Shown here in pieces: positions 3,996 to 33,659 of a DNA stretch of 64,000 nucleotides. The stretch spans positions 248,001 through 312,000 of the forward strand of contig NZ_CAMTTF010000001.1 of NCBI RefSeq assembly GCF_947077765.1. The letters run 5' to 3'. Each line of letters begins with the position of its first letter. Position 1 is the first letter of the stretch. A program made the position numbers and the translations under genes. The notes under the pieces are model-generated. The model saw nothing but the letters and a program-made list of their open reading frames with translations, was not told where the DNA came from and made no database searches. This stretch comes from Salinibacter grassmerensis. GTDB taxonomy: Bacteria; Bacteroidota; Rhodothermia; Rhodothermales; Salinibacteraceae.

Positions 3996-4039
3996 ACGGC
4001 AACGGTGGCAAACCTAGGGCCTCTCACTGCATTAGATAC

Positions 4040-6011: not shown

Positions 6012-6077
6012 AAAAATCCTTTTCTACATGCGTAACATAATGAGTACGGTGTGAGTGCTCCCCCACGGCGGGGGAAG
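6012..6077 (+). repeat. Left copy of an imperfect inverted repeat
   Basis: This AT-rich then GC-rich segment reads aaaaat, a T-rich spacer, tacatgc, aatgagta and then a small hairpin of five C and five G ending ggggaag. The reverse complement of 16880-16937 has the same blocks in the same order. Both copies point inward. They could be ends of a 10.9-kb element or two members of a dispersed repeat. Confidence 0.45.
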
Positions 6078-6297
6078 GTCCCCAATATCCCAAACAATAA
6101 TATCGCTCTTGCGCTTAGTCATACATAACTTCTCTAAAGAGAATCGAAAGTGGCGCTCGAAGCAGAACATCGAGTCGGTGATTCCGGCCCAAAACGAGAA
6201 TATACCGGACTCCCGACCTGTGATGTGTAAAAATATGAACGCCGAGACGTTGTCGAGCGCACAGCGGTTCGCCTGAAGGAGCGACGGCGACTCCTCG

Positions 6298-6606
6298 CTA
6301 CGTCGTTTCGTTGTCGGGCACCTTCTCCACCAGTCCCTCTTCGCCTAGCTCCTGAAGAAACGAACGTACGTGCCGCAGCGCCTTGGCCTCCGGGGTCGCC
6401 CATTCCGCAGCAATCGCGGCCGCAATGGCGCTGGCATCGCGGCCCTGGGCAAGGAGCTGCCAGATGCGGTGCCCGGTCTCGTTGAGGGAGTAGTACTGCT
6501 GCGCCTCCAGGTGGAGCAGGACCGACTCGTCTTCGTCGATCGTGGTGGAGACGACCTGGGAACGGGGACGGTACGAACGCATGGGGGCTGCAGAGGCTTG
6601 TGACAT
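6298..6606 (-). CDS. PqqD-like RiPP recognition protein, second copy
   Basis: A 102-residue PqqD-family protein starting at ATG 6606 (MSQASAAPMRSYRPRSQVV). The family core is clear: VLLHLEAQQYYSLNETGHRIWQLLAQG near residues 27-53, then the helical half ending in a Leu/Glu-rich tail. It is divergent from an HPr-kinase-like gene starting 77 bp away at 6684, so the pair probably shares a control region. It differs from the B1 at 1493 in the Ser-rich N-terminus and Ala-rich helices, so it is not a recent duplicate. No cyclase is adjacent. Likely role: binding the leader of a peptide substrate, possibly that encoded at 9951-10118, for the neighbouring kinase or for B2 at 15532. Confidence 0.85.
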   Translation of the reverse strand: MSQASAAPMRSYRPRSQVVSTTIDEDESVLLHLEAQQYYSLNETGHRIWQLLAQGRDASAIAAAIAAEWATPEAKALRHVRSFLQELGEEGLVEKVPDNETT

Positions 6607-6683
6607 ATCATCGGTTAATTGAAAGAACGGCTCCGGCGACGAGGAAAAGCATTTTGTCGTAGGGACCGAAGAGGCTCGTGTCC
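6607..6683. promoter_or_regulatory. Divergent control region of the second PqqD/kinase pair
   Basis: Only 77 bp separates the two divergent start codons, so both promoters must lie here or overlap the coding starts. I could not assign convincing -33/-7 boxes. Confidence 0.4.
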
Positions 6684-7706: not shown

Positions 7707-7931
7707 AGCCAGGGATTGGAAAACAGAGTCCATGTCTCCTATGGTCTTATCCGCTTCGAGAAGGAACCAATCTAGGACCGCGCGCCGGCGAGCCCGTACC
7801 GTTCGTCGCCTTGAGCCCGATCCAGGGCCCATTCGAACGTACGGGCAGGTTGTCTCTCCCAGACAGGGCTTTACAGAGGGGCCAGGCAGGTCCACGCATT
7901 ATCGTGGCGACACCTGCTCCCGTGGCGGTAC

Positions 7932-9923
7932 TCACTCCACCACCGTCAACTTCTGAGCTTGTGTGCGATTCTCCGCCGTCAGGCGCACGAAGTATGTGCC
8001 GCTCGGCAATCGGTTGGCGTCGAGGCGGACCGTTTTCATCCGCCCGGTCGGCGGAGGGCCGTCGTGCAGCGTCGCGACCTTGCGCCCGAGCACGTCGTAG
8101 ACCGCCACGGTGGCCGTGGAGGCTGTCTGGACGCCGAACCGGAGGGTCGCGGCCTGCCGGGCCGGATTGGGCGAGGGGGGCGTCAGGCGGAGGGGGGCGT
8201 CCAGGCCGAGCGTCACTGCCGCCACGTCGGAGAATGATTCGGTGCCGTCCAGGTCCCGTTGCCTCAAGCGAAAGCGGTGCGGGCCCGGAGGCAGGTCCGG
8301 TGTGCGGACCCGGTAGGTCTGCGGCCGCTGCGTGGTCCCGGCGCCCTTCACGAACTGCAGCGTCCGCCAGTCGGCCGCCACTGTCGAGTCGCCCGGCGCG
8401 TGCTGCACCGCAAAGCCTGCGTTGTTGGTTTCGGTGGCCGTTCGCCACCGCAAAAGAACGGCATCGTCGGTCGTCGAGGCCGCGAAGCGGGTCAGCTCGA
8501 CCGGCAGGACATCGCCCGTCTCGATGTTGAGGTAGCGCTCGAAGGTCTCAGTGCTAGAGCTCGTGTGTCCGATTAGGCGGGCGTGCCAGAACTCCTCGGA
8601 CGGGATTGGCGCGTCGGTCCAGAACAGATTTCCGCCGGAGAGGAGCGTCGTCAGCCGATCCGGTGGGTACGAATCGACGAGGTCCTGTCCGCCGTCGTTC
8701 AGCACAATCTGGAGCGCCTCGTCGCTGTCGATGAAGCCCTCCGGAATCGGGCCCATCTCTGGAAGAAGGCCGGGCCCCGAGGTCGTGTCTACGTCTGCGC
8801 TCAACGGATCGATCGTCACCGTTGTCCCCAGATCCTGCGACGGCGAGTAGAACCGGTACGTCCAGGCGTAGGCGGTGCCGTTGGGCCGTGGGCCCGTCTC
8901 GGCCTGCACCCACCGGAGCTGCGAGTCCGGCGCGTAGTGCGCCGCCGAGTCCCGGGCGACGGGCAGGTTGGGCGCGGCGCGGGCGGTGGTGCGCGGGAAC
9001 TCGAACAGTTGCAGGTCCACCCCGGTCTGCTCGCCCCCACCCATCTCCACCGCATTGGGCGAGCCGTCCCCGTCGGGGTCGTGGAAGCCGAGCGCGTCGA
9101 TCGTCGTGTTCGAGCCGTTGGTGTAGCGGACCGCGATGGGGACGTAGGTGCCCGGCCGCACGAACTCCACGCCATAGTCCCCGGACGATCCGATCAGCGC
9201 GTCCCCGCCCCGAATATTCCAGTCGGTTTCCTCGATCGAAAACTCGTCGAGCAGAAGGACCTGGGTAAACGGGCCGTTGCCCGCGGCCTTCGGTCCAATC
9301 GTTCGGACGCGGGCCTGAGGGGGGCTGGAAGGGAGTGATCTCGCCTCGTTCATCTCAGGGTCAGTTTCGGCGGCGTCGAAGACGAGGTGCCCGCGTCCAC
9401 GCTGCCGTAAGCCCTTGGCCAAAGTGCGAAGAGTCGGGCGCATGTCGGACGCCGGGGAGGAGAGGAATTTCTGAGCGGGCACGGGCGCGCTGACCGAGCC
9501 GGAGATCGTGCCCTCCCCAGCGTCCGGGGCGGTCGTGTAGCGCAGGGCGTACGGCTCCGCCATTGGCGTTCCGCCCGCACTTTCCACGGCGTACACCAGC
9601 CAGGTGTAGTCGACGTCCGGCTGGTGGCTGACCCGAAAGCGCACGTGGCGGGGGACATCGTCGCCCCCGCCACACGGACCCGCAAAATTGAGACAGAGGG
9701 AGACGCCATCGATCGACAGTGAGGCGCGGGGCGCCTCCACGAACCGCGAGTCCCAGTCGGTACTCACGCCGATCTCTTGGGCAAACGAGAAGGCCACGGT
9801 GTCGGCGAGGGACACACCGGCCGCGCCGTAGGCCGGAGCCGACTGCTCTACGACGAAGTCACTCTGCGCGTGGGCGCCGCCGCAGAGCAGCCCGAGAACG
9901 AAAAGACACGTCACATGTCGCAT
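7932..9923 (-). CDS. Secreted protein with type IX sorting domain
   Basis: A 663-residue protein from ATG 9923 (an in-frame TTG at 9935 is less likely). A signal peptide MRHVTCLFVLGLLCGGAHAQ starts it. The central region is acidic and beta-rich, with an N-terminal Ig-like stretch (VEQSAPAYGAAGVSLADTVAFSF). A typical VLPVELTRFAAS link then precedes a fibronectin-like segment, and the last 80 residues form a C-terminal sorting domain (SPNPARQ, VYDVLGRKVATL, LPSGTYFVRL). Such proteins cross the outer membrane by the type IX system. The function of the body is unknown. Its start is 27 bp after the stop of the small peptide gene 9951-10118, so the two are likely co-transcribed. Confidence 0.82.
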   Translation of the reverse strand: MRHVTCLFVLGLLCGGAHAQSDFVVEQSAPAYGAAGVSLADTVAFSFAQEIGVSTDWDSRFVEAPRASLSIDGVSLCLNFAGPCGGGDDVPRHVRFRVSHQPDVDYTWLVYAVESAGGTPMAEPYALRYTTAPDAGEGTISGSVSAPVPAQKFLSSPASDMRPTLRTLAKGLRQRGRGHLVFDAAETDPEMNEARSLPSSPPQARVRTIGPKAAGNGPFTQVLLLDEFSIEETDWNIRGGDALIGSSGDYGVEFVRPGTYVPIAVRYTNGSNTTIDALGFHDPDGDGSPNAVEMGGGEQTGVDLQLFEFPRTTARAAPNLPVARDSAAHYAPDSQLRWVQAETGPRPNGTAYAWTYRFYSPSQDLGTTVTIDPLSADVDTTSGPGLLPEMGPIPEGFIDSDEALQIVLNDGGQDLVDSYPPDRLTTLLSGGNLFWTDAPIPSEEFWHARLIGHTSSSTETFERYLNIETGDVLPVELTRFAASTTDDAVLLRWRTATETNNAGFAVQHAPGDSTVAADWRTLQFVKGAGTTQRPQTYRVRTPDLPPGPHRFRLRQRDLDGTESFSDVAAVTLGLDAPLRLTPPSPNPARQAATLRFGVQTASTATVAVYDVLGRKVATLHDGPPPTGRMKTVRLDANRLPSGTYFVRLTAENRTQAQKLTVVE

Positions 9924-9950
9924 GGCAGAGGGCAAGAGGCAGGGAGAGAA

Positions 9951-10118
9951 TCAGCTTGCGGTCGACTCGAAGAAATGGCGGTCCCCCGTGCCGCGGATCA
10001 GGTCCGTCTCGCGCCGCAGCTCCGGCTTGACAAACGGCTTGCGCGGGTCTTCGGGGGCGTCGGGCTCATCGGGCTGTGAAGAGGATTGGGCATCGGAGGA
10101 CGGAGTGTCGGAAGGCAT
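9951..10118 (-). CDS. Candidate RiPP precursor, 55 residues, with lasso-like leader spacing
   Basis: A 55-residue acidic peptide with GC-rich third codon positions, which supports real coding. The N-terminus is Ser/Asp/Pro rich. The C-terminal part reads KPFVKPELRRETDLIRGTG and then DRHFFESTAS. Phe29, Pro32, Leu34 and Thr44 match the lasso leader spacing [YF]-x2-P-x-L-x9-T; only the Gly position is Thr38. Cleavage after Gly45 would free a ten-residue peptide ending in Ser. The only acidic residue at a usable place is core Glu6, so a lasso ring of 7-9 residues cannot form. It lies between two secreted-protein genes on the same strand. B1-like, kinase and B2 genes lie within 6 kb. Precursor status is inference. 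Confidence 0.5.
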   Translation of the reverse strand: MPSDTPSSDAQSSSQPDEPDAPEDPRKPFVKPELRRETDLIRGTGDRHFFESTAS

Positions 10119-10188
10119 GGGCAGTTGAGGTCAGATTCGACAAAAAGCGTGTCCTGAACCGCGTGGAGGCGAGCGCCGAAACAGAGTC

Positions 10189-12951
10189 CTACCGGACGAG
10201 AGTCATCCGCCGGGTAAAGGCCTGCTCGCCTGTCCTCAGGCGCAGCAGGTAAACGCCGCTGGCCAGGGCCTGTCCGTCGCGGGTGCGCCCGGTCCAGGGG
10301 ATCTGATGCGTGCCGGCGCGCACGGGGCCATCTACGAGCGTGGCCACCCGTCGGCCCATCATGTCGTAGACCGTGAGCGTCACGTCGGTCTGTTCGGGAA
10401 GGGCAAACTTGATCGTCGTCCGGTCGCCGAAGGGATTCGGGGCGTTGCCTGCGAACTGCGCCGCGGCCGCGGGGGAGAGCTCGTGGACGGGATCGAAGTT
10501 GACCTCCAGTCGGCCGTCGTCCTTGGTCGGGCAGGTGCTGGCGGCGATGGCGAAGTACGTCGACGGGTCTCCGATCGTGGTCTGTGTCAGATCGAAGACG
10601 GCCGCCGCGGGCGGATTTTGTGGGTCGTCCGCCGTCCACGTGTCTCCGCTCCGCGTGAAGCCGCTTGGCTCGCCGGTCACCGTGAAGTTCTCCAGCTTCG
10701 TATACTCGATCTCTTCGAGGCCATCCGTGTTGGTAAAGGTGGCGGTCACCACGCCGGGGCTTCCGTCCTCAGGGGGCGTAACGGACTCGCCTAGGGTGGT
10801 GGCGGTGCACTCGGGCGTCGGGTCGCCGTCTGTGCAGGCCGCCACCGGCTCCGGGCTGAAGTCGACCGTCACGGCCCCTACGACCGCGTCGCCAGTGCCG
10901 GGGTAGTCACCGCTCGGCCCGCTGGACGCGCCCCAGTAGTTGCCGGAGGCGGTCAGAATTTGCCCGCCGGACGACCGTACGCCCACGCTGCTGTTGTTGG
11001 AGATGCAGTTGCCGGTGACCTGCACGTTTTGCCCGGGAGTGTCGGCGTCGACGCCGAAGGCCCAGTCGGAAATGTTGTTTTCCGTGATCTCCGTGCCGCT
11101 GACTCCAGATCGGATCCGGAGTCCCGCTCCGCTCCCCGGCCCCCCAAGATTGTTGGCCGAAAATGTGTGGCCGCTCGTGTTCGCTTGGACAAAAATCCCG
11201 GCTGTCTCCCCGCCAACGAGGCCGCCGGTGATCTTGAAGCCGTCAATCGTGACGTTGTCGGCGGCCACCTCGAAAGCGTCCACGGTGGGCGTAGACGCGT
11301 CCTGCAGGGTCAAGGCCTTGTCCACGGTCACGGTCTCCGCGTAGGTGCCGTCGTGGACCTCCACGGTCTCGCCGGGGGCCGCCGCGGTGACGGCCGGCGA
11401 AATCGGCGAGTAGATTTTCTGGACGCCGGATTCGTCTTTGACGTCTCCGTTCGCGTTCCGAATCACGACGGCCCGATCAAAGGTGTTGTCGGCGAGAAGG
11501 GCGTCTAAGTCCAGGGCTGCTGTTTTGTCCTCGACCTGCAATTCGGTGTTGTTAAAGCTGTTGCCTGCGACGGTCGTGGTGCCCGCAGTGCCGTCTTCAA
11601 ACCCGAATCCGACGCCGACCGTCGATGTGGTGGGGGCGGACTGGACCGTGGACACGTCGTTGCCGGACGCGTCGACCCCCGTGGGGGTTTGGCCGTGATT
11701 GTCGGTGCCCCGGACGACGATCCCGAACGCCCACGTCGTGGCGTCCATCCCGACGTTCGCAACCGTGTTGCCCGTGACGGTTGCGCCGTCCACGTGGCCC
11801 TGAATGCTGATGCCGGCCGCGCCCCCTTTTGTATCCCGCCCGTCCAGGTTTTGAACCTTGTTGTCGGCAATCGTCAGGTCGTCGATGGCGTCGCCGCTGT
11901 TGCCACCGAAGGCCACGATGCCCCCTAAGCCCTCCCAAGGGGGAAGCCCACTTTCTTCAAAATCGCGGACGACGGTGTTGGCCACCACCACATTGTCTGG
12001 GGCATTGCTGACGCGAAGCGCCTCCGCCGTCGTGTTAGAGGTCGCAGGGGGCGGGGCCACGTCGAACCCGTCGAGGGTCACGTCGGAGGCCGAGATCACC
12101 ACCTGTCCCTCGATGGTCGCCTCACCGCCGCGGGGACTGTCACCTGGCGTACCAGCGTTTGCGCCCTTGAGAGTGAGTTGTTTGTCCACGGTGACATTTT
12201 CGGTGTAAAGGCCCTCCAGTACCTGGATGGTGGTATTCGTCCCCGTCGCGTCGATGGCGTTTTGAATAGACGCGTAGTCGGCGGGCCCGTCGTCGTCGAC
12301 GGTGATCGTGACGCTGCTACTCAGGGTCTGGCTTGTGTTTGGCGTGCCCGGTGTGCTGGCAAGAGGGCCCGTCCAGGTGAAGTCGCTGTACGCGGTGCCG
12401 GATCCCTCCAGTTGTACAGACTCTCCGACGGGAGGAGGCGTGGACTCGTCGGCCCCAATCGGGGTGCTCGTTTTGCCGCCCGCACACCCGTCCCCGCTGG
12501 TGCCCGTGAGGGTGCCCTCGTAGCTCAGAAACTGGTCGGTGCCCCCACTGGACACCAGCGCCTCGAACGTGCCGTCGTCATTGCTGTCAAAGCAGAGCGC
12601 AAGCGCCTCCGTGCCGTTTTGAAGGGTCTCCCCGTTGTCCGTGTAGTTGTACGAGTACAGGGAGAACCCCCCGGTAGTCGCGCCAGGGGTAAACGCATCG
12701 AGGGGAACCGGGTCTGCGGCGTCGGAATCTCCATCCGCTCCGTTGTAGTGGAGAACCTGAAACCGGCCGAGGGCGACGCTGCCGGCGTCCTCGATCACAA
12801 CTTCGACAACCTCATCGGTGTCTCCGCCGGCATTGTCGTAGTGAACCTCATTGATCCAGGCGTTGGGCGTTTGGGCCTGCGCGGGCAGAGGCGACAGAGC
12901 AAAGAGCAGTGAAAGGAAGAGCGCACGTCCTGCGGGGTGAAGTGACCACAT
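10189..12951 (-). CDS. Secreted parallel beta-helix protein with lamin-tail-like and type IX sorting domains
   Basis: A 920-residue secreted protein. The signal peptide MWSLHPAGRALFLSLLFALS ends at PLPAQAQ. Residues about 27-210 resemble a lamin-tail domain (NAWINEVHYDNAGGDTDEVVEV). A right-handed beta-helix follows, with two pectinesterase-like openings (TVDDDGPADYASIQNAID and AAPGETVEVHDGTYAETVTVDKALTL) and many short Asn-rich turns such as NTVANVG. A Cys-containing segment precedes the C-terminal sorting domain (APNPFGDRTTIKFALPEQ, VYDMMGRRVATLVDGP, LASGVYLLRL). It may bind or process polysaccharide at the surface, but no catalytic motif is obvious. The product is strongly acidic. It is followed 70 bp downstream by the small peptide gene. 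Confidence 0.82.
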   Translation of the reverse strand: MWSLHPAGRALFLSLLFALSPLPAQAQTPNAWINEVHYDNAGGDTDEVVEVVIEDAGSVALGRFQVLHYNGADGDSDAADPVPLDAFTPGATTGGFSLYSYNYTDNGETLQNGTEALALCFDSNDDGTFEALVSSGGTDQFLSYEGTLTGTSGDGCAGGKTSTPIGADESTPPPVGESVQLEGSGTAYSDFTWTGPLASTPGTPNTSQTLSSSVTITVDDDGPADYASIQNAIDATGTNTTIQVLEGLYTENVTVDKQLTLKGANAGTPGDSPRGGEATIEGQVVISASDVTLDGFDVAPPPATSNTTAEALRVSNAPDNVVVANTVVRDFEESGLPPWEGLGGIVAFGGNSGDAIDDLTIADNKVQNLDGRDTKGGAAGISIQGHVDGATVTGNTVANVGMDATTWAFGIVVRGTDNHGQTPTGVDASGNDVSTVQSAPTTSTVGVGFGFEDGTAGTTTVAGNSFNNTELQVEDKTAALDLDALLADNTFDRAVVIRNANGDVKDESGVQKIYSPISPAVTAAAPGETVEVHDGTYAETVTVDKALTLQDASTPTVDAFEVAADNVTIDGFKITGGLVGGETAGIFVQANTSGHTFSANNLGGPGSGAGLRIRSGVSGTEITENNISDWAFGVDADTPGQNVQVTGNCISNNSSVGVRSSGGQILTASGNYWGASSGPSGDYPGTGDAVVGAVTVDFSPEPVAACTDGDPTPECTATTLGESVTPPEDGSPGVVTATFTNTDGLEEIEYTKLENFTVTGEPSGFTRSGDTWTADDPQNPPAAAVFDLTQTTIGDPSTYFAIAASTCPTKDDGRLEVNFDPVHELSPAAAAQFAGNAPNPFGDRTTIKFALPEQTDVTLTVYDMMGRRVATLVDGPVRAGTHQIPWTGRTRDGQALASGVYLLRLRTGEQAFTRRMTLVR

Positions 12952-13393
12952 GGCGTCGTCGGGGCAGGGAGACAGAAAGTGCGGAGAGGTGTGCTACAGA
13001 ATCAGAAGCGAGGGAGAGCTGAGAGCTGAGATGGCCGCTAGTCGACCGGACTACCGTTTGTTTTGTTTTGTTATTTTGTAACAAACAAATGTTTGGGGAG
13101 GGAGAGAAGCTATGAGATCTCGGATTGCCTGCGCTGCTCCTGTGACTCGTCCGTCCCACGCGGAGCAGAGTGGCGCTGTGGAAAGAAATGACGACGGAAG
13201 ACCGGTCGACGTGCTCCGGAAGGGCGTTAGTGAGTTCGCTACGGCGCAGACGGGAAATCGCCGTCCCCAAAAGGGCTGATCGGAGTCGAGAAATGGGCTC
13301 GGTCCGCCTGGGCGCGAACACAGAGGCCGCCTGCCCGATGAGGGGCTGGAGGAGGCAAAGCACCGAGACAGTTCGCCCCCTCCGGACGAACGG
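12952..13393. other. Intergenic region upstream of the beta-helix gene
   Basis: No gene is visible. An AT-rich run at about 13054-13092 contains TTTG and AACAAA blocks that partly pair with each other. It stands out sharply from the GC-rich surroundings and is the likely promoter region for the minus-strand gene starting at 12951. Confidence 0.4.
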
Positions 13394-15004
13394 CTACAGA
13401 TCGCCGTCCCGCTGTGGAATGGAGTCGGCGCGGCGGTTCTGTTCATCGGCGCCCTTCTTGCCGCCCGGGTCGCCGACGGCCCCTTCTCCGCTTGTCGTGA
13501 CGCGGTCGGGCGCGATGCCGTTGTCCTCGTAGAAGTCTGCCACGGCCTGAGCGCGGTCCCGAGAAAGCGGCAGGGGCGATGGTTCGTCCGGGGCCGCGAA
13601 GCCCTTTACGCGGACCGACAGGTTCGGGCAATTGCGGAGCACCTCCGCGTTCTCCTGGAGCTTCTTCCGCGCCTCAGAGCTAAGCGGGCTCGATCCCCGA
13701 GCAAAGTAGACCGTGTTGAGCTCCTGCACCGTTTTGCAGACGGCCGGGAGCGTCCGCTCCACCTGCAGGGCGATCGAGTCAGTGGCCGTCCCGTCCTCGT
13801 TGGTCGCGGTGAGGCGGACAGTGTACTCGCCCGGGGCACCGTAGGTGTGAGTGGGAGCGGGTCCCGTGACGGATCGCCCGTCGCCGAAGCTCCACTCCAG
13901 GGTGAGGGGTTTGGCGCCCTCCACCGTGCTCTCAAACTGAACCGGCTCGCCCGACGAGGCCGGACTGGGGGTGGCGGTGAGAGCAAGAATGCGGGGCGGC
14001 CGTGGGGCCGGAAGCACTTCCACGGTCAGCGAATCGATGGCGGTGCCGGCGTCATTACGGGCCGCAAACGCGACGGCGTAAGTGCCGGGAGCGTTATAGA
14101 CGTGCGACGGCGTGAGCCCGGTGGCCGTCCGCCCGTCGCCGAACGTCCACTCATAGGACAGTGGGCGCGTGGCCTCCTCCTCGTTGACGCGGGCGGCAAA
14201 GGCGGCCGCCTCGCCGGCCGTCACCTCAGCAGGACCGTTCAACTCTAAGATACGAGGCGGCACCGCGGGCCGGTCGAAGGTGTACTTCAGTCCGATGGCA
14301 GGCAGGGCGCTGAGGGCATCAGCACGGGTCTCACTGGTAATGCCGTCAACAGCGTCGTCCAGGAACGTAAAATTAAGGCGGCTCTCGACAAATAGTGACG
14401 TGCGGTCGGTGAGGGATACGTCTACCCCAATCCCAACTAGATGCCCAATTCCAGGGGAGCGCCCCCCGAGAGAGAGGTTGAGCCCTGCGTCGACATAAGG
14501 GCTCACCCGCAATCCTGAGGCTCCAACCATATACCGAGTCAGGAGCTGTACCGTGTGTCGCGACTGGCCGAGGTCACCGCCTTGTCCTGGGGCGCTCGAG
14601 GTGGTGGTGAAGGGGACGCCATCGGCGAAGGGATACTGCCCGAACTGGTAGCCCAGCCCGAGGCCGAACTCGGGTGAGAACTGGTAGCCCAGCTCCCCGA
14701 CGAGCACGTACGGAAACGCCGCCCGTTCGGTGAACTTGCGGGTGTCAAAAAACTCCCTCAGCTCAGTCGTCTGGTCGAGACCCAGGGATCCGTCATTGTC
14801 ACCGGCGTAGTCGGACAGCCCCCCACCAAGCTTGATGTAGAACGTGTCGCCGGCGCGCTTGCTCTGGGCCTGGGCCGGAGGAGAGAATGCGAGCCCGAAT
14901 AGCACGGCGGCGAGCAGGAGGCTGTAGAGACTCCTCTGCAGACCACCGGGACGACCAGAAGGCAAAAACGCCTGCGCGGTAGGGGAAGACGTGGGAAACG
15001 ACAT
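13394..15004 (-). CDS. Outer-membrane beta-barrel, two PKD domains and OmpA domain
   Basis: A 536-residue envelope protein starting at ATG 15004 (MSFPTSSPT); the longer frame to 15106 lacks a good signal peptide. A signal peptide ends at SPPAQAQS. Residues about 50-255 form an OmpA-like barrel (FYIKLGGGLSDYAG to GLKYTF). Two PKD domains follow, each with the hallmark YEWTFGDG or LEWSFGDG. The last 110 residues are an OmpA peptidoglycan-binding domain (TVYFARGSSPLSSEARKKL, VKGFAAPDEPSPLPLSRDRAQAV). It probably ties the outer membrane to the wall, with the PKD domains as spacers. A barrel followed by PKD and then OmpA is a plausible but less common order. A short AT-rich stretch near 15110-15135 may hold its promoter. 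Confidence 0.85.
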   Translation of the reverse strand: MSFPTSSPTAQAFLPSGRPGGLQRSLYSLLLAAVLFGLAFSPPAQAQSKRAGDTFYIKLGGGLSDYAGDNDGSLGLDQTTELREFFDTRKFTERAAFPYVLVGELGYQFSPEFGLGLGYQFGQYPFADGVPFTTTSSAPGQGGDLGQSRHTVQLLTRYMVGASGLRVSPYVDAGLNLSLGGRSPGIGHLVGIGVDVSLTDRTSLFVESRLNFTFLDDAVDGITSETRADALSALPAIGLKYTFDRPAVPPRILELNGPAEVTAGEAAAFAARVNEEEATRPLSYEWTFGDGRTATGLTPSHVYNAPGTYAVAFAARNDAGTAIDSLTVEVLPAPRPPRILALTATPSPASSGEPVQFESTVEGAKPLTLEWSFGDGRSVTGPAPTHTYGAPGEYTVRLTATNEDGTATDSIALQVERTLPAVCKTVQELNTVYFARGSSPLSSEARKKLQENAEVLRNCPNLSVRVKGFAAPDEPSPLPLSRDRAQAVADFYEDNGIAPDRVTTSGEGAVGDPGGKKGADEQNRRADSIPQRDGDL

Positions 15005-15531
15005 GAACGACTGGGGGAGATGTGCGTCGTCCGATGAGCGTATGTCCCGACTGGGATGCGATGTCATCGGAGGCGATCTGAGGCGAAGAGGGAATCGTTC
15101 AAGCAACAGAATTTATGATAATCAAAATATACTAACGCTCCTCTCGCTCTTCCTTTTGAGTCTCTGGATGAGTCGGGAGAAAAGAATGGGAAAATGGTCG
15201 CGACGATGGTCCCCAGTAGAGAGCTCTGGTCCAGGTTGCGGCTTTGAGAGCGGGAGCGAGACATCAGGCAGGTCGTCTCCTACGAAATATGTTGCATGAG
15301 AACGCCGTCGTTTGGTGCTCGACGCCGCGCTTCGTCACGTCAAGGAGTATCCTCCGTGCAGGGCTGGTGGGGACCTTCCACCCTCCAGCGAAGTTTTCTG
15401 AGGTTCGTTTTGGGATGCGGTCCCGACGGGAAGATGGGGCCGGGACGTGAAGAGGCCCCATCAGATCCTGCGCGCGCCCAACGCCCCAGTCTCGAAGTGA
15501 GACGGGCACAGTTCGCTGACCGCGAGCCGCA
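15005..15531. other. Intergenic region between B2 and the OmpA/PKD gene
   Basis: About 530 bp with no gene I can support. The left part (15100-15135) is AT-rich and probably carries the promoter of the OmpA/PKD gene; nothing else is recognisable. Confidence 0.35.
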
Positions 15532-16050
15532 TCAGGACGTCTGCCTGGGCGTGTTTGCGGCCTCAAGCTTCGTACCGAGGTCCTCGAACCGCTCGTATGT
15601 GTCGGGGGCTCCTGCGCCTCCAATCAGCACGCGCCCGCTGTGCTCGACCCAGGCGTGCGCCTGGAGGCCTGTATCTTCGTTCTTCGTCACCCCAATGTGC
15701 AGTTCGGCTGCGTCGTCCCCACGGCGAAGCAAAAGATACTGCAGGACGAGAGCCTGCGTGAGGCAGGGCCGCTCGGGCAGGAGGCGCTGGCCCACCGCGT
15801 GGGCGGCCCAGGCGGCGCGCAGGCGGTAGCGGGGTGTTGCCGCCGACCACCGGGGAAGCCCCGCCGCTACGCGCCGCAGGGTTCGGGTCATGCGGCTTAG
15901 AGAGGTGGCCGAGAGCCCGCCCCGGATGCACGCAGTGAGCGCAGCCGCGTACAGTAGCAGCCCCCAGTTTTGCCAGGGGTGGCGCCACAGTGTTTGGAGC
16001 CTGCGCACGAGGGCCTTCAAGGTGTTCAAGGGACTACGTGATTGAGGCAT
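15532..16050 (-). CDS. Lasso peptide B2, transglutaminase-like leader peptidase
   Basis: A 172-residue protein of the lasso B2 family. The catalytic Cys is in RPCLTQALVLQYLLLRRG (Cys96) and the catalytic His in QAHAWVE (His132). Their 36-residue separation matches what I know of McjB-type proteases, and IGVTK lies between them as usual. The N-terminal half is Arg-rich with one hydrophobic patch (WGLLLYAAALTACI). It should cut the leader after the residue following the conserved Thr. It is the only B2 in the window, but it is 10 kb from the lasso operon and on the opposite strand. It probably acts in trans on the precursor at 3834. It may also serve the 55-residue peptide at 9951-10118. Confidence 0.85.
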   Translation of the reverse strand: MPQSRSPLNTLKALVRRLQTLWRHPWQNWGLLLYAAALTACIRGGLSATSLSRMTRTLRRVAAGLPRWSAATPRYRLRAAWAAHAVGQRLLPERPCLTQALVLQYLLLRRGDDAAELHIGVTKNEDTGLQAHAWVEHSGRVLIGGAGAPDTYERFEDLGTKLEAANTPRQTS

Positions 16051-26398: not shown

Positions 26399-28501
26399 TC
26401 ATCCTACCCGCGCGAAGCCGAGGCCGTGCTCAGCGTAGTCCTCCTGGTAGCGCTGGCGGAGCCGTTCGTGCTCGTCGGCCCGCAAGTGCGGGTCTTTCTC
26501 AATGAGGGCGAAGGCGGCCTCGCGGGCGACCTCCAGAATCTCGTCGTCCTCGGTGAGGTCGGCGATCTTGAGGTCGGGCATCCCGCTCTGGCGGGTGCCG
26601 AAGAAGTCCCCGGCGCCGCGGATCTGGAGGTCCGTCTCGCTGATCTCGAACCCGTCGTTGGTGCGGGCCATCGCCTCCAGGCGCTGCTTGGCCTCCTGGC
26701 TCCGCTTGTAGCTGGCCATGAGGACGCAGTAGCTCTGCTGGTCGGACCGCCCCACCCGGCCGCGCAGCTGGTGGAGCTGACTAAGTCCAAACCGCTCGGC
26801 GTGCTCCACGAGCATCACCGTCGCGTTCGGCACGTCGACCCCCACCTCGATCACAGTCGTGGCCACGAGGAGGTCGATCTCTCCCTCCTTGAACCGGCGC
26901 ATCGTCGCGTCCTTTTCGTCGGACCCGAGCTGGCCGTGGACGAGCCCGACCGTGTAGTCCGAAAATGTCTCCTGGAGCTCCTGCGCCCCGCTTTCCGCGT
27001 CCTTGAGGTCCATCTTCTCGCTCTCCTCTACGAGCGGGTACACCACGAACGCCTGCTCGCCCTGCTCCAGCCGGTCGTTCAGGAAGGCGTATACCTCCCC
27101 CCGCCGCTTCTCGGCGCGCAGGCGCGTCTCGACCGGCTTGCGGCCCGGCGGCATCTCGTCGATCTTCGACACGTCGAGGTCGCCGTAGAGCGTGAGGGCG
27201 AGGGAGCGGGGAATGGGCGTGGCCGTCATGAGGAGCATGTGGGGCCGCTCGCCCTTCTCGAACATCTCGGCGCGCTGGGCCACCCCGAAGCGGTGCTGCT
27301 CGTCGACCACCGCGAGGCCGAGGTTGTCGAACGCGACCTCTTCCTGAATCAAGGCGTGCGTGCCGACGGCGACCGGGCTCTCGCCGCTGCGGAGGGCCCG
27401 AAGCGCCTCCTCCCGCTCCGCCTTGGTCTGGCTCCCGATCAGTAGGCGCGGCTCCAGCCCCAGTGGGTGGAGGTAGTCCTGCAGGCTAGCGTGGTGCTGC
27501 TCGGCGAGGATCTCGGTAGGGGCCATGAAGGCGCTCTGATAGCCGCTGTCGTAGGCGTGCATCATGGCCGCCACGGCGACGACCGTCTTTCCGCTGCCCA
27601 CGTCCCCCTGGAGAAGGCGGTTCATCTGCGTGCCCGTCTGCACGTCGCCGATGATCTCGCGCAGGGCCCGGGTCTGGGCGCCCGTGAGCTCGAAGGGGAG
27701 CACCTCTCGCACAAACTCGCGGGTGTACGCGTCGGGGTCGCCGAAGGCAGGCCCCGCCACCTCCTCCTGCTGCTCGTGCATCTGGGCCAGCAGGAGCTGG
27801 ATGAAGAAGAGCTCCTCGAACTTCAGGCGACGCCGCGCCCGCGAGAGCTCCTGCTGGTTCTTCGGGAAGTGAATGGCCCGCAGCGCCACGCGGCCCTCCA
27901 TCAGGTCGTACCCGTCTACGAGCCAGCCGGGCATCGTCTCCGTGAGCTTCAGGCCGTGCTCCTTGAACAGGTCGTACAGGACGCGGCGCACGGTCCGGCT
28001 CGTGAGGCCGACGTTGCTCATGGCCTCCCCACCCGGGTAAAGCGGCACGATGCGGCCTGTATCGAGCAGCGGACCCTCGTCGTTGAGGCGGTCGAAGTCC
28101 GGGTGTGTCATCGAGTGCCAGCGGCCGTACTTCTCCACCGTTCCGTGGAAGGCCACGCGGTCGCCCTCGTCGAACGCCTTCCGCACCCACCAGACCCCCT
28201 GAAACCAGGTGCCCTTCATGCGCCCGCCCTGCTCCCCCTCCAGAATGATTTCGAGCCGCTTCTGGTTGTTGCTGGGCACTACGTTGACAGAGCGGACGGT
28301 GCCCACGACCGTGACCGAGTCCGGACTCTCCTGAAGACGCCGCACCGGGGTTACGGTCGTGCGGTCAAGGTAGCGGCGGGGGTAGAAGTGGAGCAGGTCC
28401 TGCACGGTGCGCACGCCGTGCTGCTCGGCCCACACGTCGGCCCGTTTCTCCCCCACGCCCTTCACGTAGCGGACGTCTTGCTGAAGAAAGTCCTCACTCA
28501 T
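26399..28501 (-). CDS. recG: ATP-dependent DNA helicase RecG
   Basis: A 700-residue protein of normal RecG length. The N-terminal wedge/OB part runs to about residue 270 (VTVVGTVRSVNVVPSNNQKRLEII). The helicase part follows: FELTGAQTRALREI, Walker A LLQGDVGSGKT near 300, DEQHRFG near 400 (the DExH box) and MTATPIPRSLALTLYGDLDVS. The C-terminal helicase motifs include LVATTVIEVGVDVPNATVMLVEHAERFGLSQLHQLRGRVGR. RecG remodels stalled replication forks and Holliday junctions in the cytoplasm. ATG 28501 gives MSEDFLQQDVRYVKGVGEKRA, a typical start. The order recG then PEGA gene on the minus strand may allow co-transcription across 278 bp. Confidence 0.97.
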   Translation of the reverse strand: MSEDFLQQDVRYVKGVGEKRADVWAEQHGVRTVQDLLHFYPRRYLDRTTVTPVRRLQESPDSVTVVGTVRSVNVVPSNNQKRLEIILEGEQGGRMKGTWFQGVWWVRKAFDEGDRVAFHGTVEKYGRWHSMTHPDFDRLNDEGPLLDTGRIVPLYPGGEAMSNVGLTSRTVRRVLYDLFKEHGLKLTETMPGWLVDGYDLMEGRVALRAIHFPKNQQELSRARRRLKFEELFFIQLLLAQMHEQQEEVAGPAFGDPDAYTREFVREVLPFELTGAQTRALREIIGDVQTGTQMNRLLQGDVGSGKTVVAVAAMMHAYDSGYQSAFMAPTEILAEQHHASLQDYLHPLGLEPRLLIGSQTKAEREEALRALRSGESPVAVGTHALIQEEVAFDNLGLAVVDEQHRFGVAQRAEMFEKGERPHMLLMTATPIPRSLALTLYGDLDVSKIDEMPPGRKPVETRLRAEKRRGEVYAFLNDRLEQGEQAFVVYPLVEESEKMDLKDAESGAQELQETFSDYTVGLVHGQLGSDEKDATMRRFKEGEIDLLVATTVIEVGVDVPNATVMLVEHAERFGLSQLHQLRGRVGRSDQQSYCVLMASYKRSQEAKQRLEAMARTNDGFEISETDLQIRGAGDFFGTRQSGMPDLKIADLTEDDEILEVAREAAFALIEKDPHLRADEHERLRQRYQEDYAEHGLGFARVG

Positions 28502-28742
28502 GCCTGTAGGTTACGGGCCAGGTAACGGGCCGACCGGTCAATGCGGGATGTGCGGACGATGTGTCCGCTCTTTCTCACACGAACTGCGGGGTGGCGTTCC
28601 CGGCGCCGGAGGCCCACTTTCCCCCAGCCTACGGCGGATGGGTTCTCTGGATTCTGCGGTGCGGTCGCCCGAGCGGCATTCATCCCACTTCGGGCAAGGA
28701 GCGCGTCCTCCCATGGAAACGGCTCTTTACGAGAGCGATCCC

Positions 28743-29573
28743 TCACGAGAACGGCACGCTCGTTCCCACGCTCAGGGCGAACCGATCCCCGAAGACGTGC
28801 TTGCCGAGCACGCTGACCCAGGTTGGCGACAGCGTGAGCGGAACCGGCTCCGGCACGACGACCGAGACGCCAATGTTTAGGTCCTGTCCGTGCCATGTGC
28901 CCGACACGTTTACGCGATCGGCCAGCTGGACGCTCAGCGCCCCGAACAGGGCGGCCTGATTTGTGTCGTTCGAAAGGCTTTTCATCGTGTTGAATCGCCC
29001 GTCTCCCACGCCAGCGGTGGCCGACGCCTCGGTGAGAATATCGTTGTCGAGCCGCAAGACCTGACTCGCCACCACGTACGCGCTTTTGCTGTCCCACCCG
29101 CCGTACTGAATCACGTCCTCTATGCCTGCGGCGATGGAGAGCCCCCCGTAGACATGGCGGTGGACCTTTAGGCTGAGACTCCCCTCACTCAGCGGGTCGT
29201 CCACCAGGTCGTACACCGCGTACCGGACGTCGAGCCCAACTGTTTGGCGGGCCTCCCCTACGCCGAAGCCGAGAAATGCGGCCCCGTCGTCTCGCTGCGG
29301 GAGGCCCGGCTTCAAGAAGTGCTGGTAGGAGACGCCTCCGTAGAGGTCGCCAAACTCAGCGCCGTGCGCCGCCGGAATGCCGGCCGTAATGGCGGGGTCC
29401 GGCCCTTCGTCCCTGCGCATCCCCCCAGCGATCTCGCTTCCCGCGTAGCCGGCAGACTCGTTCTGCAGGAACGGAAGGCGGGTCTCGATGGGCTGGGCAC
29501 TCGCGCTACAGAGAGAAGCTCCGACCACCGCGAGCACCGCCAGTATCCCGCTTCGGAGCAGATCGCAAGTCAC
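28743..29573 (-). CDS. Putative outer-membrane beta-barrel protein
   Basis: A 276-residue protein from GTG 29573, with a signal peptide ending near SLCSASAQ. The rest alternates polar and aromatic residues in short strands (GDLYGGVSYQHFLKP, FLGFGVGEARQTVGLDVRYAVYDLV, VHRHVYGGLSIAAGIEDV, VNVSGTWHGQDLNIGVSVVVP) and ends in VGTSVPFS with a terminal-aromatic pattern typical of barrels. The repeated Gly plus aromatic pattern suggests 8-12 strands. I do not recognise a specific family. It lies 241 bp upstream of recG on the same strand; a shared transcript is possible but not required. Confidence 0.65.
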   Translation of the reverse strand: MTCDLLRSGILAVLAVVGASLCSASAQPIETRLPFLQNESAGYAGSEIAGGMRRDEGPDPAITAGIPAAHGAEFGDLYGGVSYQHFLKPGLPQRDDGAAFLGFGVGEARQTVGLDVRYAVYDLVDDPLSEGSLSLKVHRHVYGGLSIAAGIEDVIQYGGWDSKSAYVVASQVLRLDNDILTEASATAGVGDGRFNTMKSLSNDTNQAALFGALSVQLADRVNVSGTWHGQDLNIGVSVVVPEPVPLTLSPTWVSVLGKHVFGDRFALSVGTSVPFS

Positions 29574-29946
29574 GACTGGAGGAAGCTGGGGGCAGGACAG
29601 CAGCGAAGAGAGCCGACTGGAGATTGAGCGCTTCCCATATGGGCTTTTTGAAGGGAACGGCGGAGACGCCGACGCAAGACCTAACTATACACCTGTGTCC
29701 ACTACCATGCATCCTACACCAGTGAAGATCCGAGGGGGCATTTGCCCACCGTGGCTGGTAGAGAGCGTGTAGCGGCCCGAAAGGAGGGGGCTTTCTTCTG
29801 GGTATGAAGAGGAATCCTGGGCACCAAGCTCATGGCCCTAACCCCCGGGGATATGGCTCTGAGTCCCGATCGTCTCCAAGATGTTCTCATTGATCCCACC
29901 CGGGACAATTCTATGCCCGAGAGCATCCTGTCGCTGGCCCAATCCT
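29574..29946. other. Intergenic region after the PPGQ-repeat gene
   Basis: About 370 bp with no gene. A short palindrome cccatatggg followed by a T-run (29635-29650) and a gaaag/ctttc pair near 29780-29800 are weak terminator-like signals. Confidence 0.3.
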
Positions 29947-30381
29947 TTAGTCGTCTACGCCGTAGTCGCTGCTGCTGTAATCTTTCTCTCCGTGAATGCT
30001 ACGGCTCCGATTGCCGTCAACATAGTCATCGCTGCCATACCTCTCGCTCACATAATCGGTGCTGGTGGCACCTTTCTGACCAGGGGAGCCTTTGTGGTCG
30101 TCGCTTTGACCAGGAGGATCCTCGCACTGACCCGGAGGAGTACTCCCTTGACCCGGAGGAGTGCCTCCCTGACCGGGGGGTTTATTGCATGGAGATCCAC
30201 TAGATGCGAACGCCGGCACGCTTCCGATGGTCATGATCGCCGGTGCGGCGTACGCCCCTTTCTTGAGCGCGTCTCGCCTTGACATCGTCGAGTTCTCGGA
30301 ACCGTCGTCGGGAGTAAATTCCTCTCCGTCTCTCTGTCCCGTGCTCTCTGGTCGCTGAGAATCATCCCTACCGTCGTCCAT
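29947..30381 (-). CDS. PPGQ-repeat protein with TAT-like N-terminus, candidate kinase/RRE substrate
   Basis: A 144-residue protein from ATG 30381. An acidic N-terminus of about 30 residues precedes SRRDALKKGAYAAPAIMTIG, which looks like a twin-arginine signal (SRRDALKK plus a short hydrophobic run). It then has SVPAFASSGSPC, a Pro-Pro-Gly-Gln repeat region with five PGQ units and two Cys (about 70-110), and an acidic Tyr/Ser/Asp-rich tail. Inside the hydrophobic run, Y-A-A-P-A-I-M-T-I-G matches the lasso leader spacing Y-x2-P-x-[LI]-x3-G. It follows the PqqD-HPr-kinase fusion gene by 105 bp on the same strand, so it may be that enzyme's substrate rather than an ordinary secreted protein. The function is unknown. 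Confidence 0.6.
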   Translation of the reverse strand: MDDGRDDSQRPESTGQRDGEEFTPDDGSENSTMSRRDALKKGAYAAPAIMTIGSVPAFASSGSPCNKPPGQGGTPPGQGSTPPGQCEDPPGQSDDHKGSPGQKGATSTDYVSERYGSDDYVDGNRSRSIHGEKDYSSSDYGVDD

Positions 30382-30486
30382 CGCTTCAAGCAAGAGGTTT
30401 GCTACCAGAATACGCAGAAAGGAGTATGAGGAGACGGAGCGATTATTCCGAAAGAGGACTTTTATCTACAAAGACGTTCCAAAAGA

Positions 30487-31668
30487 CTAAATCCGGGCAT
30501 CTGCCTTCCGCAGGGCGGATGTCAGCAGACCGGAAATGCTACTTCGACTGTTATAGCACAACTGGAAGGCGGGGACCTGCCCGGCCAACCGGCACAGCCG
30601 GTCCACGGCGTCGCCGTGGTGGCGGCCCGCGTTCTGGCAGCGTTCCACGAGTGACACTGCAGCCTCGGCCGCGCCCTGTCGTTCCACTTCCGCTGGCCGA
30701 CCTGGATTGAAGACCGGGAGAAACACAGCGTCCGGCTGGACGGGAGCGTCCCGAATGCGCGCCGGTTCTAAGGTGACGCGTGTTTTGGGCCGTCCGGCCA
30801 GCTCCTCCCTGGAGAGTGCCTCTTTCCCAGACTCGCGGTAGGCGATGGTGGTGGGGAAGGGCAAAATCGCTCCGGAGTTAGGGTCATGCGGGGCCATGTT
30901 GTCCGACAGGTATGTCCACCCCGAGCGGCACAGGGCCGCGATCACTGTGCTTTTGCCGCTGCCCCACGGGCCGGCGACCAGAACGGAGGTGTCGTCTCGG
31001 GTCGCCGCCCCGGCGTGGAGCCAAATCAGGTCCGGTCGCGCCTCCATGAATCGCCGCAGGGCCGTGTGCTTCAGGTCGCGGATCGCGCTGTCCAATGTGT
31101 GTTCTTCTGTCTGGTCGCCTCCAGCGCCGCGCACGTAATACTGCTCCCCTGACCTCCCTGCGGCAAGCACGTCGACCGTTTCGGGGCGCGAGTCGTCGCC
31201 GCGCCGCCCGCCGAGCATCCCATGAAAAACACGCCGCACGGCCCGCGCAAGCTTGGGGGCATCGGTCCGGACCTTGACCTGATGCGCCCCGAACACAACG
31301 CGCAGGGTCTCTCCATTTTTGGCGTCCGGTGGCCCGTCCTGGCCGGTCCTGGATATGTCTCCGCTAGGTACGAAGAGGAGCCCTTGGTCGCGCAGACGAG
31401 AGGCCATCTGCCGCAACGTCTCCATGACCTCGGGAGGGGGCGCGTTGGCCGTCCCTCCAATCGCACGACCCATTTCTACCAGGGGGGTGTTCCCGTCACA
31501 ACGCTCCCACAGCTCCCGCGCAAGGGCCGTGATTGCAAAGACCTGGTCCCGCTCCGAATCGTGCAGGACCGCGTCGCCGTCGACCCGGTAGGCGGTCACC
31601 GATGGGTTGCGGAGAGGGACGTCGTGACTCTGAACGTCACCATCCTGACTGTCGTCGCGTTCGGCCAT
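30487..31668 (-). CDS. PqqD-HPr-kinase fusion protein
   Basis: A 393-residue protein from ATG 31668 (MAERDDSQDGD). The N-terminal ~100 residues are PqqD-like (PSVTAYRVDGDAVLHDSERDQVFAITALARELWERCDG, with a helical half ending RLRDQGLLFV). The remainder is HPr-kinase-like: LIWLHAGAATRDDTS, Walker A GPWGSGKST and LSDN. The last Asp of the usual SDD is Asn here. Near the C-terminus is PVQPDAVFLPVFNPG. The fusion joins in one chain the two activities that are separate genes in the clusters at 1.5-5.3 kb and 6.3-7.7 kb, which implies that they normally work together on one peptide. The SDD-to-SDN change may lower or alter kinase activity. The next gene encodes a PPGQ-repeat protein with a leader-like motif. 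Confidence 0.82.
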   Translation of the reverse strand: MAERDDSQDGDVQSHDVPLRNPSVTAYRVDGDAVLHDSERDQVFAITALARELWERCDGNTPLVEMGRAIGGTANAPPPEVMETLRQMASRLRDQGLLFVPSGDISRTGQDGPPDAKNGETLRVVFGAHQVKVRTDAPKLARAVRRVFHGMLGGRRGDDSRPETVDVLAAGRSGEQYYVRGAGGDQTEEHTLDSAIRDLKHTALRRFMEARPDLIWLHAGAATRDDTSVLVAGPWGSGKSTVIAALCRSGWTYLSDNMAPHDPNSGAILPFPTTIAYRESGKEALSREELAGRPKTRVTLEPARIRDAPVQPDAVFLPVFNPGRPAEVERQGAAEAAVSLVERCQNAGRHHGDAVDRLCRLAGQVPAFQLCYNSRSSISGLLTSALRKADARI

Positions 31669-32147
31669 GGGCTTAAAGTGTCTGTCTATTCGAAGTCGGC
31701 CATCGGGCGCGCACTTGAGAGCCTGCACCCCCCCAAGCGTCTCAGAAGTGCGATAATCCGATACAGCCCGCCTAAGTGCGGCGACTCGCGCCCCCTGTGC
31801 GGCCTCGGGATCACTGCGATGACGGTGAGTGCCGTTACTCCCGCAAAAAGCATGACGTCCGCAAAAAGTGTCGGCACGAAGACCACCAAGCCCACGCCGA
31901 CGCTGCCGGTGCTCGTCTCGATCTGTAGGATGGGTCCGGCTTTCGGGCGAAAATGGTCTGGCCAAACGGCCTGTGATTGAAGCGCACGGCTTCCTTATGC
32001 CGGCGGATCGAACGGATTCGTCGGCAGGCCCGGCCGTGGAGAGAGGACCGCAAAGAGAGGATCATAACGCTGAGATGATGATTTTCTCCCTGTTCGCCTT
32101 GCACCTTATGAAAACGGTACTTTGTCTCCACCAACTTCGCCCGGCCT
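31669..32147. other. Intergenic region between divergent genes, with hydrophobic ORF remnant
   Basis: About 480 bp. A minus-strand frame (31686-31895) encodes a hydrophobic run (VFVPTLFADVMLFAGVTALTVIAVI) and then an Arg-rich stretch. It has no good start and no match, so it is probably not a gene, or is a worn membrane-protein fragment. The plus-strand promoter of the phosphoesterase gene should lie near 32050-32140. Confidence 0.35.
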
Positions 32148-33659
32148 ATGCAGTCTACGCGTCGCGACTTCCTCAAGTATCTTGGCCTCACTGGAGCCGC
32201 GCTCGGCGTTCCGGGGATGGCCGCGGGAGCCCCTCGCCTAGGCGTTGGTCGGAAGTCGGTAACAGTCACCGGTCGCGTCACAGGGCCGGACGGGGGACTG
32301 GAGGGTGTGCCCATAACCGACGGCGTCACTGTTACGCAGACCGGCGCCGACGGGCGCTACGAGCTGGCCGCCTCACCCCGCCGGCCGTTTGTCTACCTCT
32401 CGGTGCCGAGCGGGTACCGGCTCCCCACGCACGAGACGGGCACCGCCCGGTTCTACCGGCCCTTAGGCGCGGCGGGGGGCACCGCGGAGGCCTCGTTTCG
32501 GCTCACGCCCCTCGACCGCGACGACGAGCGGCACGCGTTCCTCTTCCTGGCCGACCCACAGACTCGGACGGAAGCGGAGGTGCAGCAATTTCAGGACGAG
32601 ACGGTGCCCGACGTGCAGGGTGCCGTGCAGGCGCTCGGCGACCGCCCGGTCTTTGGGGTGGGCGGGGGCGACCTCGTGTTCGACGACCTGTCGCTCTTTT
32701 CCGGCTACGAGGCGGCGGTTCAGGAGATGGGCATCCCGTTCGTGCAGGCAGTGGGCAACCACGACCTTGACTTCGACGCGCCGGGCGACCCGGGCTCCAC
32801 GGCCACCTTCCGGCAGCACTTCGGCCCCGAGTACTACTCGTTCGACCGCGGGGCCGCCCACTACGTGGTGCTCGACGACGTATACTGGCCGGGGAGCGAC
32901 GGCTTCGGGCGGGAGACGGGCGACTACCACGGCCACCTCGACGCGGCCCAGCTCGCGTGGCTGGAGCAGGACCTCGCGCTCGTCGAGAAGGGTCGTCCCG
33001 TCGTCGTGTTCACGCACATCCCGCCCCTTAGCACTGCCTACGAGCGGCAGGGAGAGGCGAGCCCGTCGGTCCGGGGCCGGATTGGAAACCGCGCTGCGCT
33101 CTACGAGCTCCTCGATCCGTTTGACGCCCACATCATCAGCGGGCACGTCCACGAAAACGAACACCGCTTCGCCGACGGCCCGCACGAGCATGTGGTCGGC
33201 ACGGTGTGCGGCGCGTGGTGGACCGGCCCGGTCTGCTACGACGGCACGCCCAAGGGCTACGCGGTCTACGAGGTGGACGGCGAGTCCGTCAAGTGGCGCT
33301 ACAAGTCCACCGGCCACGAGGCCGACCACCAAATGCGGGCCTACCCGGCCGGGGCCGATCCCGAGGCGCCGGGCGAGTGGGTTGCCAACGTGTGGGACGC
33401 CACCGACGACTGGACGGTAGTGTGGTACGAGGACGGCATCCGCACCGGCGCCATGGCCCGCCGCGTGGGGCTCGACCCGATGAGCCGGCGCCGCCACGCG
33501 GGGGGCGACCAGCCGGAGAAGCACACGTGGGTGGAGCCACAGCCCACCGCGCATCTGTACTACGCCCCCGACAACCCGGACGCGAACCGGGTGCGGGTAG
33601 AGGCCACCGATCCCGCCGGGCGCACCTACGTGGCCCGCCCGTCTTCCGGCAGGGGCTGA
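32148..33659 (+). CDS. Secreted calcineurin-like phosphoesterase with flanking beta domains
   Basis: A 503-residue metallophosphoesterase. It begins with a twin-arginine signal (STRRDFLKYLGLTGAALG). A carboxypeptidase-regulatory-like domain follows (VTVTGRVTGPDGGLEGVPITDGV to about 85). The catalytic core has the five metal-binding blocks: FLADPQT, VGGGDLVFDD, VGNHD, FTHIP and SGHVHENEHR. The C-terminal ~140 residues are a beta domain (KGYAVYEVDGESVKWRYKSTG onward). This three-part layout is that of the MetallophosN/C family in Bacteroidota. It probably hydrolyses a phosphoester in the periplasm or outside; the exact substrate is unknown. A PhoD-like enzyme is encoded next, so the two may form a phosphate-scavenging pair. 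Confidence 0.88.
   Translation: MQSTRRDFLKYLGLTGAALGVPGMAAGAPRLGVGRKSVTVTGRVTGPDGGLEGVPITDGVTVTQTGADGRYELAASPRRPFVYLSVPSGYRLPTHETGTARFYRPLGAAGGTAEASFRLTPLDRDDERHAFLFLADPQTRTEAEVQQFQDETVPDVQGAVQALGDRPVFGVGGGDLVFDDLSLFSGYEAAVQEMGIPFVQAVGNHDLDFDAPGDPGSTATFRQHFGPEYYSFDRGAAHYVVLDDVYWPGSDGFGRETGDYHGHLDAAQLAWLEQDLALVEKGRPVVVFTHIPPLSTAYERQGEASPSVRGRIGNRAALYELLDPFDAHIISGHVHENEHRFADGPHEHVVGTVCGAWWTGPVCYDGTPKGYAVYEVDGESVKWRYKSTGHEADHQMRAYPAGADPEAPGEWVANVWDATDDWTVVWYEDGIRTGAMARRVGLDPMSRRRHAGGDQPEKHTWVEPQPTAHLYYAPDNPDANRVRVEATDPAGRTYVARPSSGRG

Follow-up and report, generated by a model that had tools for sequence, protein, structure and literature searches.

The kind of system considered here, an RRE combined with an HprK-like kinase that acts on a ribosomal precursor, is already known. 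In the linear polyphosphorylated peptide (LPP) systems of Bacillota (LppA/K/B/S/D/N), LppK phosphorylates S3 of the core (AQSNWK), the precursors combine a conserved N-terminus with a variable C-terminus, and a signal-peptidase homologue removes the leader (PMC13381572, Nat Commun 2026). Among lasso peptides, the kinases PadeK, ThcoK and PsmK phosphorylate the precursors and PsmN adds hexoses (PMC9266682). NCBIfam also names an HPr-rel-A system, with a kinase (TIGR04352) and a PqqD protein (TIGR04353, PqqD_rel_X), for which open-access full text gave no matches and no described target.

We compare these systems with two adjoining genes of the window, that is, the whole stretch of 64,000 nucleotides that was analysed. 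The two genes probably form a phosphorylated-peptide (RiPP-like) export system, in which an RRE-kinase acts on the Tat-like leader precursor encoded by its neighbour. The initial annotation suggested that the system could be one not yet described, which is true only in part. LPP is of the same kind (PMC13381572) and HPr-rel-A already has a name in NCBIfam; the open-access papers searched contain no account of the Tat-leader variant, of a fusion arranged with such a neighbour, or of a distribution across Rhodothermota/Bacteroidota and Proteobacteria.

The fusion kinase and its small neighbour

Both genes, with all the features given here, are on the reverse strand. The larger (30487-31668, 393 aa, ATG at 31668) encodes a PqqD (RRE) domain fused to an HprK-like kinase. 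The PqqD domain covers residues 34-98 (31375-31569), where PF05402 scores 25.9 bits against a gathering threshold of 23.4. In a profile made from 12 fusions, the N-terminal 85 or so positions match the lasso RRE structures TbiB1 (6e-8) and TfuB1 (1e-7). The HprK-related kinase domain covers residues 210-378 (30535-31041); it is assigned from the kinase tree and from TIGR04352 (HprK-related kinase A), whose score of 82.5 bits is below the curated cut-off of 200. Around the P-loop GPWGSGKST (residues 233-241, 30946-30972), the core of which (G236, G238, K239, T241) is invariant in the alignment, the 12-fusion profile matches the HPr kinase/phosphatase 1KO7 (1.8e-5). His218 and Asp256 are, like the P-loop, invariant across the fusion family. 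A single-sequence AlphaFold2 model of the fusion had a mean pLDDT of 34 and was discarded.

About 105 bp downstream lies an ORF of 148 aa from a TTG (29947-30393), the likely start of which is the ATG at 30381, giving 144 aa. The encoded protein (MDDGRDD...MSRRDALKKGAYAAPAIMTIGSVPAFASSGSPCNKPPGQGGTPPGQGSTPPGQCEDPPGQ...SPGQ...DYVDG...DYSSSDYGVDD) starts with an acidic prefix and a Tat-like SRRDALKKGAYAAPAIMTIGSVPAFA leader, continues with PPGQ repeats and ends in an acidic Tyr/Ser tail. The prefix (30286-30381), with 12 D/E and 3 K/R in the 38 residues preceding the RR, is followed by the leader MSRRDALKKGAYAAPAIMTIGSVPAFA (30205-30285), which the leader models described below recognise. Inside the leader, YAAPAI (30235-30252) fits the RRE-binding motif [Y/W]xxPx[L/V/I/F/A] of lasso and LPP leaders (PMC13381572). 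The PPGQ/SPGQ repeats (30070-30180) are, from the translation and a comparison of two congeners, the counterpart of a hypervariable core, and the tail (STDYVSERYGSDDYVDG...DYSSSDYGVDD, 29950-30069) is partly conserved, in congeners only. The protein matches no family in Pfam or NCBIfam. It has an RR motif, a hydrophobic stretch and an AxA site, as expected of a Tat substrate, and TatC is present in the genome; the generic Tat signal models TIGR01409 and PF10518 do not call it at threshold. The initial annotation had described the fusion and this neighbour correctly in coordinates, strand, domains, leader, repeats and tail.

Directly 3' of the predicted AFA cleavage site is an SSG (30196-30204) with a candidate phospho-acceptor Ser. 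A Ser lies within three residues of the AxA site (+1 to +3) in 10 of the 16 sampled partners, against a shuffled mean of 3.6 (P of at least the observed count 0.0002, the relatedness of the 16 partners being ignored), and in the partners of both congeners the candidate Ser is outside +1 to +3. We regard the Ser right past the predicted cleavage site as a better candidate acceptor than the repeats or the tail. The multiple phosphorylation of repeats and tail that had been proposed finds no comparative support, because the PPGQ region is hypervariable and absent in other lineages; the tails there are Gly-rich or Lys/Arg-rich, and the acidic Tyr/Ser type is not shared.

The pair resembles LPP (PMC13381572) in these points: an RRE and an HprK-like kinase (here fused) with no cyclase at the locus, a short precursor with a conserved N-terminus, a variable C-terminus and a Ser just past the cleavage site, and a leader core of the form Y-x-x-P-x-[V/I]. 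Leader cleavage of the signal-peptidase type is also shared, if what we propose for the window system is right, and an NTP transferase accompanies most of its relatives in Proteobacteria and Bacteroidota. Unlike LPP, the window leader has a Tat-like RR and an acidic prefix, and it shares just the YxxPx[I/V] part of the LPP motif YxxPxVLxHQxIxFETxxS. The SpI (SipW-like) peptidase and the MsbA-like transporter of LPP clusters are without counterpart in the segment that carries the pair (28505-32150), which has no NTP_transf_5, peptidase or transporter gene; the nearest PF14907 gene is about 40 kb off. The two types also differ in distribution, with LPP in Bacillota and the window type in Rhodothermota/Bacteroidota and Proteobacteria.

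Linkage of the pair among congeners

The fusion is found in 3 of the 13 genomes of the genus, with the Tat-leader protein right behind it in those same 3, and a search of 114 genomes of the order gave no comparable match to the partner outside them. Among the three genomes the pair occupies two non-homologous sites. In the window it sits in an inserted segment of 3.6 kb (28505-32150) between a recG-like gene (26399-28501) and a metallophosphoesterase gene (32148-33659). The same site is empty in 7 congeners, where the two flanking genes adjoin with a gap of about 0.1-1.2 kb; these include G014 and G015, whose pair sits elsewhere (about 157 kb off in G015). Because both genes are present in the same three genomes, at two sites, with the window site empty in seven relatives, the fusion and the Tat-leader protein are a real unit that has relocated together. 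The segment contains, besides the pair, one ORF without a family, a predicted secreted protein of 276 aa (28743-29573, reverse strand); a secreted ORF close to the G015 pair resembles it without significance (E 0.11). No end repeats or integrase were recognised in the segment.

A comparison of G014 with G015 separates the parts of the pair. At the DNA level the kinase is 97.9% identical, the leader part 93.8% and the tail 100%, and the middle of the small protein is 55.6% identical with 27 gap columns. The window PPGQ repeats correspond to this hypervariable middle, which is seen at L003 978-1364 and L004 969-1364 (both reverse strand) in the two near-identical genomes. Judged from the sequences, such a pattern suggests diversifying selection or cassette exchange.

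The window also has a lasso peptide cluster (1851-16050), spread out and interrupted by large secreted proteins. It comprises a lasso cyclase (1851-3758, forward strand), two HprK-like kinases (4278-5258 and 6678-7706, both forward), a PqqD/B1 protein (6301-6606, reverse) and a B2 protein (15532-16050, reverse). One NTP_transf_5 gene is located about 9 kb upstream of the window.

Relatives, kinase clade and leader family

Beyond the order, the searches covered the same phylum and a plasmid collection, the records of which were searched iteratively: the fusion served as first query, and every relative so obtained as a further one. PqqD-HprK fusions are found on plasmids of Methylobacterium tardum, Rhizobium, Sinorhizobium, Ensifer, Leisingera, Parasedimentitalea and Novosphingobium. 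Several of them have an N-terminal half so divergent that Pfam does not recognise it, and this half is called PqqD-like from the alignment only. Each plasmid locus contains a protein of 70-146 aa in which a short acidic prefix precedes an RR leader and the tail is of low complexity. In M. tardum this is an unannotated ORF of 94 aa (GRRSALKAMGAVAAYTAPVLLATSIPTRAARASGS), 5 bp before the fusion ORF, the kinase gene there being annotated. Genome annotation can miss such partners because they are tiny and often unannotated. Scans of genome contigs with the fusion and the Tat protein as queries, and a scan of viral contigs, gave no confirmed locus, and plasmid records queried with just the window leader gave nothing useful.

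Sphingomonas (228 bits) and Vibrio (324 bits) have true NCBIfam HPr-rel-A kinases, with PqqD and kinase as split genes and an acidic-prefix Tat-leader protein just upstream; the PqqD-like ORF of Vibrio matches no family. To judge from the sequences, the window genus is probably Salinibacter-like, in the Rhodothermota, and the same-phylum genomes G249 and G055 are probably Bacteroidota. These two Bacteroidota genomes have partners of 53 and 58 aa (TRKEAIxKxG...KYAALTA...) with RK replacing RR, and an NTP_transf_5 gene is confirmed in one of the two. In all other sampled lineages the RR is kept, and a hydrophobic stretch and AxA-like site accompany it. In G242, a relative at the level of the order, it is the Tat-leader protein to which PqqD is fused, and several copies of this fusion surround two kinases. 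These copies (L022 on contig C181, at 302-904, 1192-1773, 3046-3663 and 4788-5264) carry Ser/Cys-rich cores such as CASDSDSGCESQC, which gives the appearance of a multi-substrate locus. That PqqD is fused to the kinase in some lineages and to the substrate in another is strong evidence that the three parts act together. The idea of the initial annotation that recognition of the leader goes together with kinase activity is borne out by the recurrence of fusions with a small Tat-leader neighbour in Alphaproteobacteria and by the split versions, which are HPr-rel-A.

Some loci depart from this arrangement. On pSymB of Sinorhizobium meliloti and related replicons (L127-L130), members of the rhizobial leader family occur as orphan copies away from any kinase, and one of them adjoins UDP-galactopyranose mutase and glycosyltransferase genes. 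The orphan copies may possibly be substrates in trans, linked to surface polysaccharide. In L090 and L091 (G334 and G114, same phylum) the kinase is accompanied by a nucleotidyltransferase-like gene and by a lipoprotein-like gene of 308-309 aa (YWYDGNAEISSYKLSQARYGE...), without a Tat-leader partner.

A tree of the kinases, with 49 rows and rooted at the midpoint without a canonical HPr kinase as outgroup, separates 23 lasso-cluster rows from a clade of 26 rows with support 97/95. The 26-row clade holds the window fusion, the HPr-rel-A kinases of Sphingomonas and Vibrio, and every sampled kinase with a Tat-leader partner; both kinases of the window lasso cluster are on the lasso side. A small Tat-leader protein is beside nearly every kinase examined in this clade, from Alpha- and Gammaproteobacteria and Bacteroidota, and four members (L020, L028, L090, L091) have no partner seen. 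The window system shares with HPr-rel-A the kinase clade (under the midpoint root only), a PqqD partner and, as seen in the true members of Sphingomonas and Vibrio, the neighbouring acidic-prefix Tat-leader protein. It differs in its sub-cut-off kinase score, in the fusion of PqqD and in a segment without NTP transferase. With the phosphorylated lasso systems (paeninodin PadeK, ThcoK, SyanK and pseudomycoidin PsmK/PsmN; PMC9266682) it shares an RRE of the lasso B1 type and an HprK-like kinase, which in the window system would likewise be directed at a precursor Ser. Unlike them, the pair is without macrolactam cyclase or B2, its kinase belongs to the other clade, and the Ser that lasso kinases modify is C-terminal.

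Leader models were built by leaving out one lineage at a time, and the partner is the top-scoring ORF of the locus in 11 of 13 lineages; the exceptions are Sphingomonas (11th) and Vibrio (2nd). With the window genus left out of training, the window partner comes first, at 14.3 bits, when all 619 ORFs of the window are scored irrespective of length; the next ORF has 6.8, and an ordinary Tat signal of the window scores 3.4. At 20 kinase loci of the lasso side no ORF exceeds 7.8 bits even with the full leader model. The alphaproteobacterial lineages are not fully independent, so that the distant tests are those of the window genus, M. tardum, Bacteroidota and G242. A profile of alphaproteobacterial leaders only, used in a whole-genome search of 113 genomes, does not single out the window protein. 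Leader homology across the phyla is therefore suggested, not proven: it rests on synteny and on rank within the locus, because the alphaproteobacterial profile gives no significant score.

These results favour the earlier reading that the Tat-like signal conceals a RiPP-like leader. Chance occurrence had been named as the danger to it; the leader stands out beyond chance by its rank in the window, and the neighbour is conserved in all three congeners with the fusion. The lasso spacing is a different matter. Y-x2-P-x-I-x3-G is indeed present in the window protein, but it finds no support as the defining motif: among the lineages sampled, [YW]xxPx[LVIFA] occurs only in the window genus (YAAPAI) and M. 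tardum (YTAPVL), and the leaders of the other lineages have F/Y with Pro at different spacings, or no Pro.

Proposed mechanism and alternatives

We propose that, in the cytoplasm, the RRE (PqqD) half takes hold of the Tat-like leader of the small protein, and that this grip would delay export and present the precursor to the kinase half. The kinase would then phosphorylate, perhaps polyphosphorylate, a Ser near the leader/core junction, which in the window protein would be in the SSG. Upon release the precursor would leave by the Tat pathway and a housekeeping signal peptidase would remove the leader, so that the product may be a phosphorylated, variable, low-complexity peptide at the surface or secreted. 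In most other lineages, the NTP_transf_5 protein of the operon might decorate the phosphate, as has been proposed for PsmN and the lasso peptide pseudomycoidin.

Tat proofreading chaperones of the DmsD/TorD type are cytoplasmic proteins that stay bound to a Tat signal until its protein has matured. The RRE-kinase would resemble them as a cytoplasmic binder of a Tat signal, and it differs from them in having a PqqD/RRE fold fused to a kinase.

Should the leader merely resemble a Tat signal, it would be an RRE-binding RiPP leader only, and the phosphorylated peptide would be cleaved and exported otherwise or kept in the cell. An acidic prefix before the RR is atypical of Tat n-regions, and the partners have such prefixes; the subthreshold score with the generic Tat models and the RK of the two Bacteroidota partners point the same way. 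We nevertheless find this unlikely, given that RR, hydrophobic stretch and AxA-like site are retained together in all the remaining lineages, that TatC is present, and that the segment has neither peptidase nor exporter gene.

The role of the small protein as substrate may also be doubted. The kinase is within the HPr kinase superfamily and could be a regulator that acts on HPr or another cell protein, with the Tat protein as unrelated cargo or a hitchhiker, much as the unrelated ORF at 28743-29573 shares the segment. This is very unlikely in our view: a partner of the same build is beside the clade kinases in about a dozen lineages, it is fused to PqqD in G242, and the nearest characterised relatives bearing an RRE modify RiPP precursors (PMC9266682, PMC13381572). 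It is also conceivable that the pair is a stray part of the lasso pathway, the small protein serving the cluster 15-30 kb off as lasso precursor or as additional substrate. YAAPAI does fit the lasso RRE motif, and cyclase, B1, B2 and two kinases are at 1.8-16 kb of the window. However, the supported clade of the fusion kinase contains neither of those kinases, the pair is in a separately inserted segment, cyclase and B2 are absent beside it in the window, G014 and G015, and related lineages use the pair without adjoining lasso genes. We reject the pair as lasso parts on the kinase tree and the insertion site, and consider that origin extremely improbable. The reading that we prefer remains a RiPP-like system in which the neighbour of the RRE-kinase is its exported substrate.

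A broader proposal, to which we give about even chances, is that of a RiPP-like class, spread over several phyla, whose Tat signal is at the same time the RiPP leader. The RRE-kinase would be a Tat proofreading chaperone that, while still in the cytoplasm, phosphorylates the mature N-terminus, and Tat would export hypervariable phosphopeptides to the surface. Our analysis offers a concrete candidate substrate for a widespread kinase/PqqD system and extends the 2026 idea of phosphorylated linear peptides past Bacillota. It suggests that a single peptide segment could serve both RiPP leader recognition and Tat export. If the multi-phylum Tat-leader class is true, the HPr-rel-A systems would gain a substrate.
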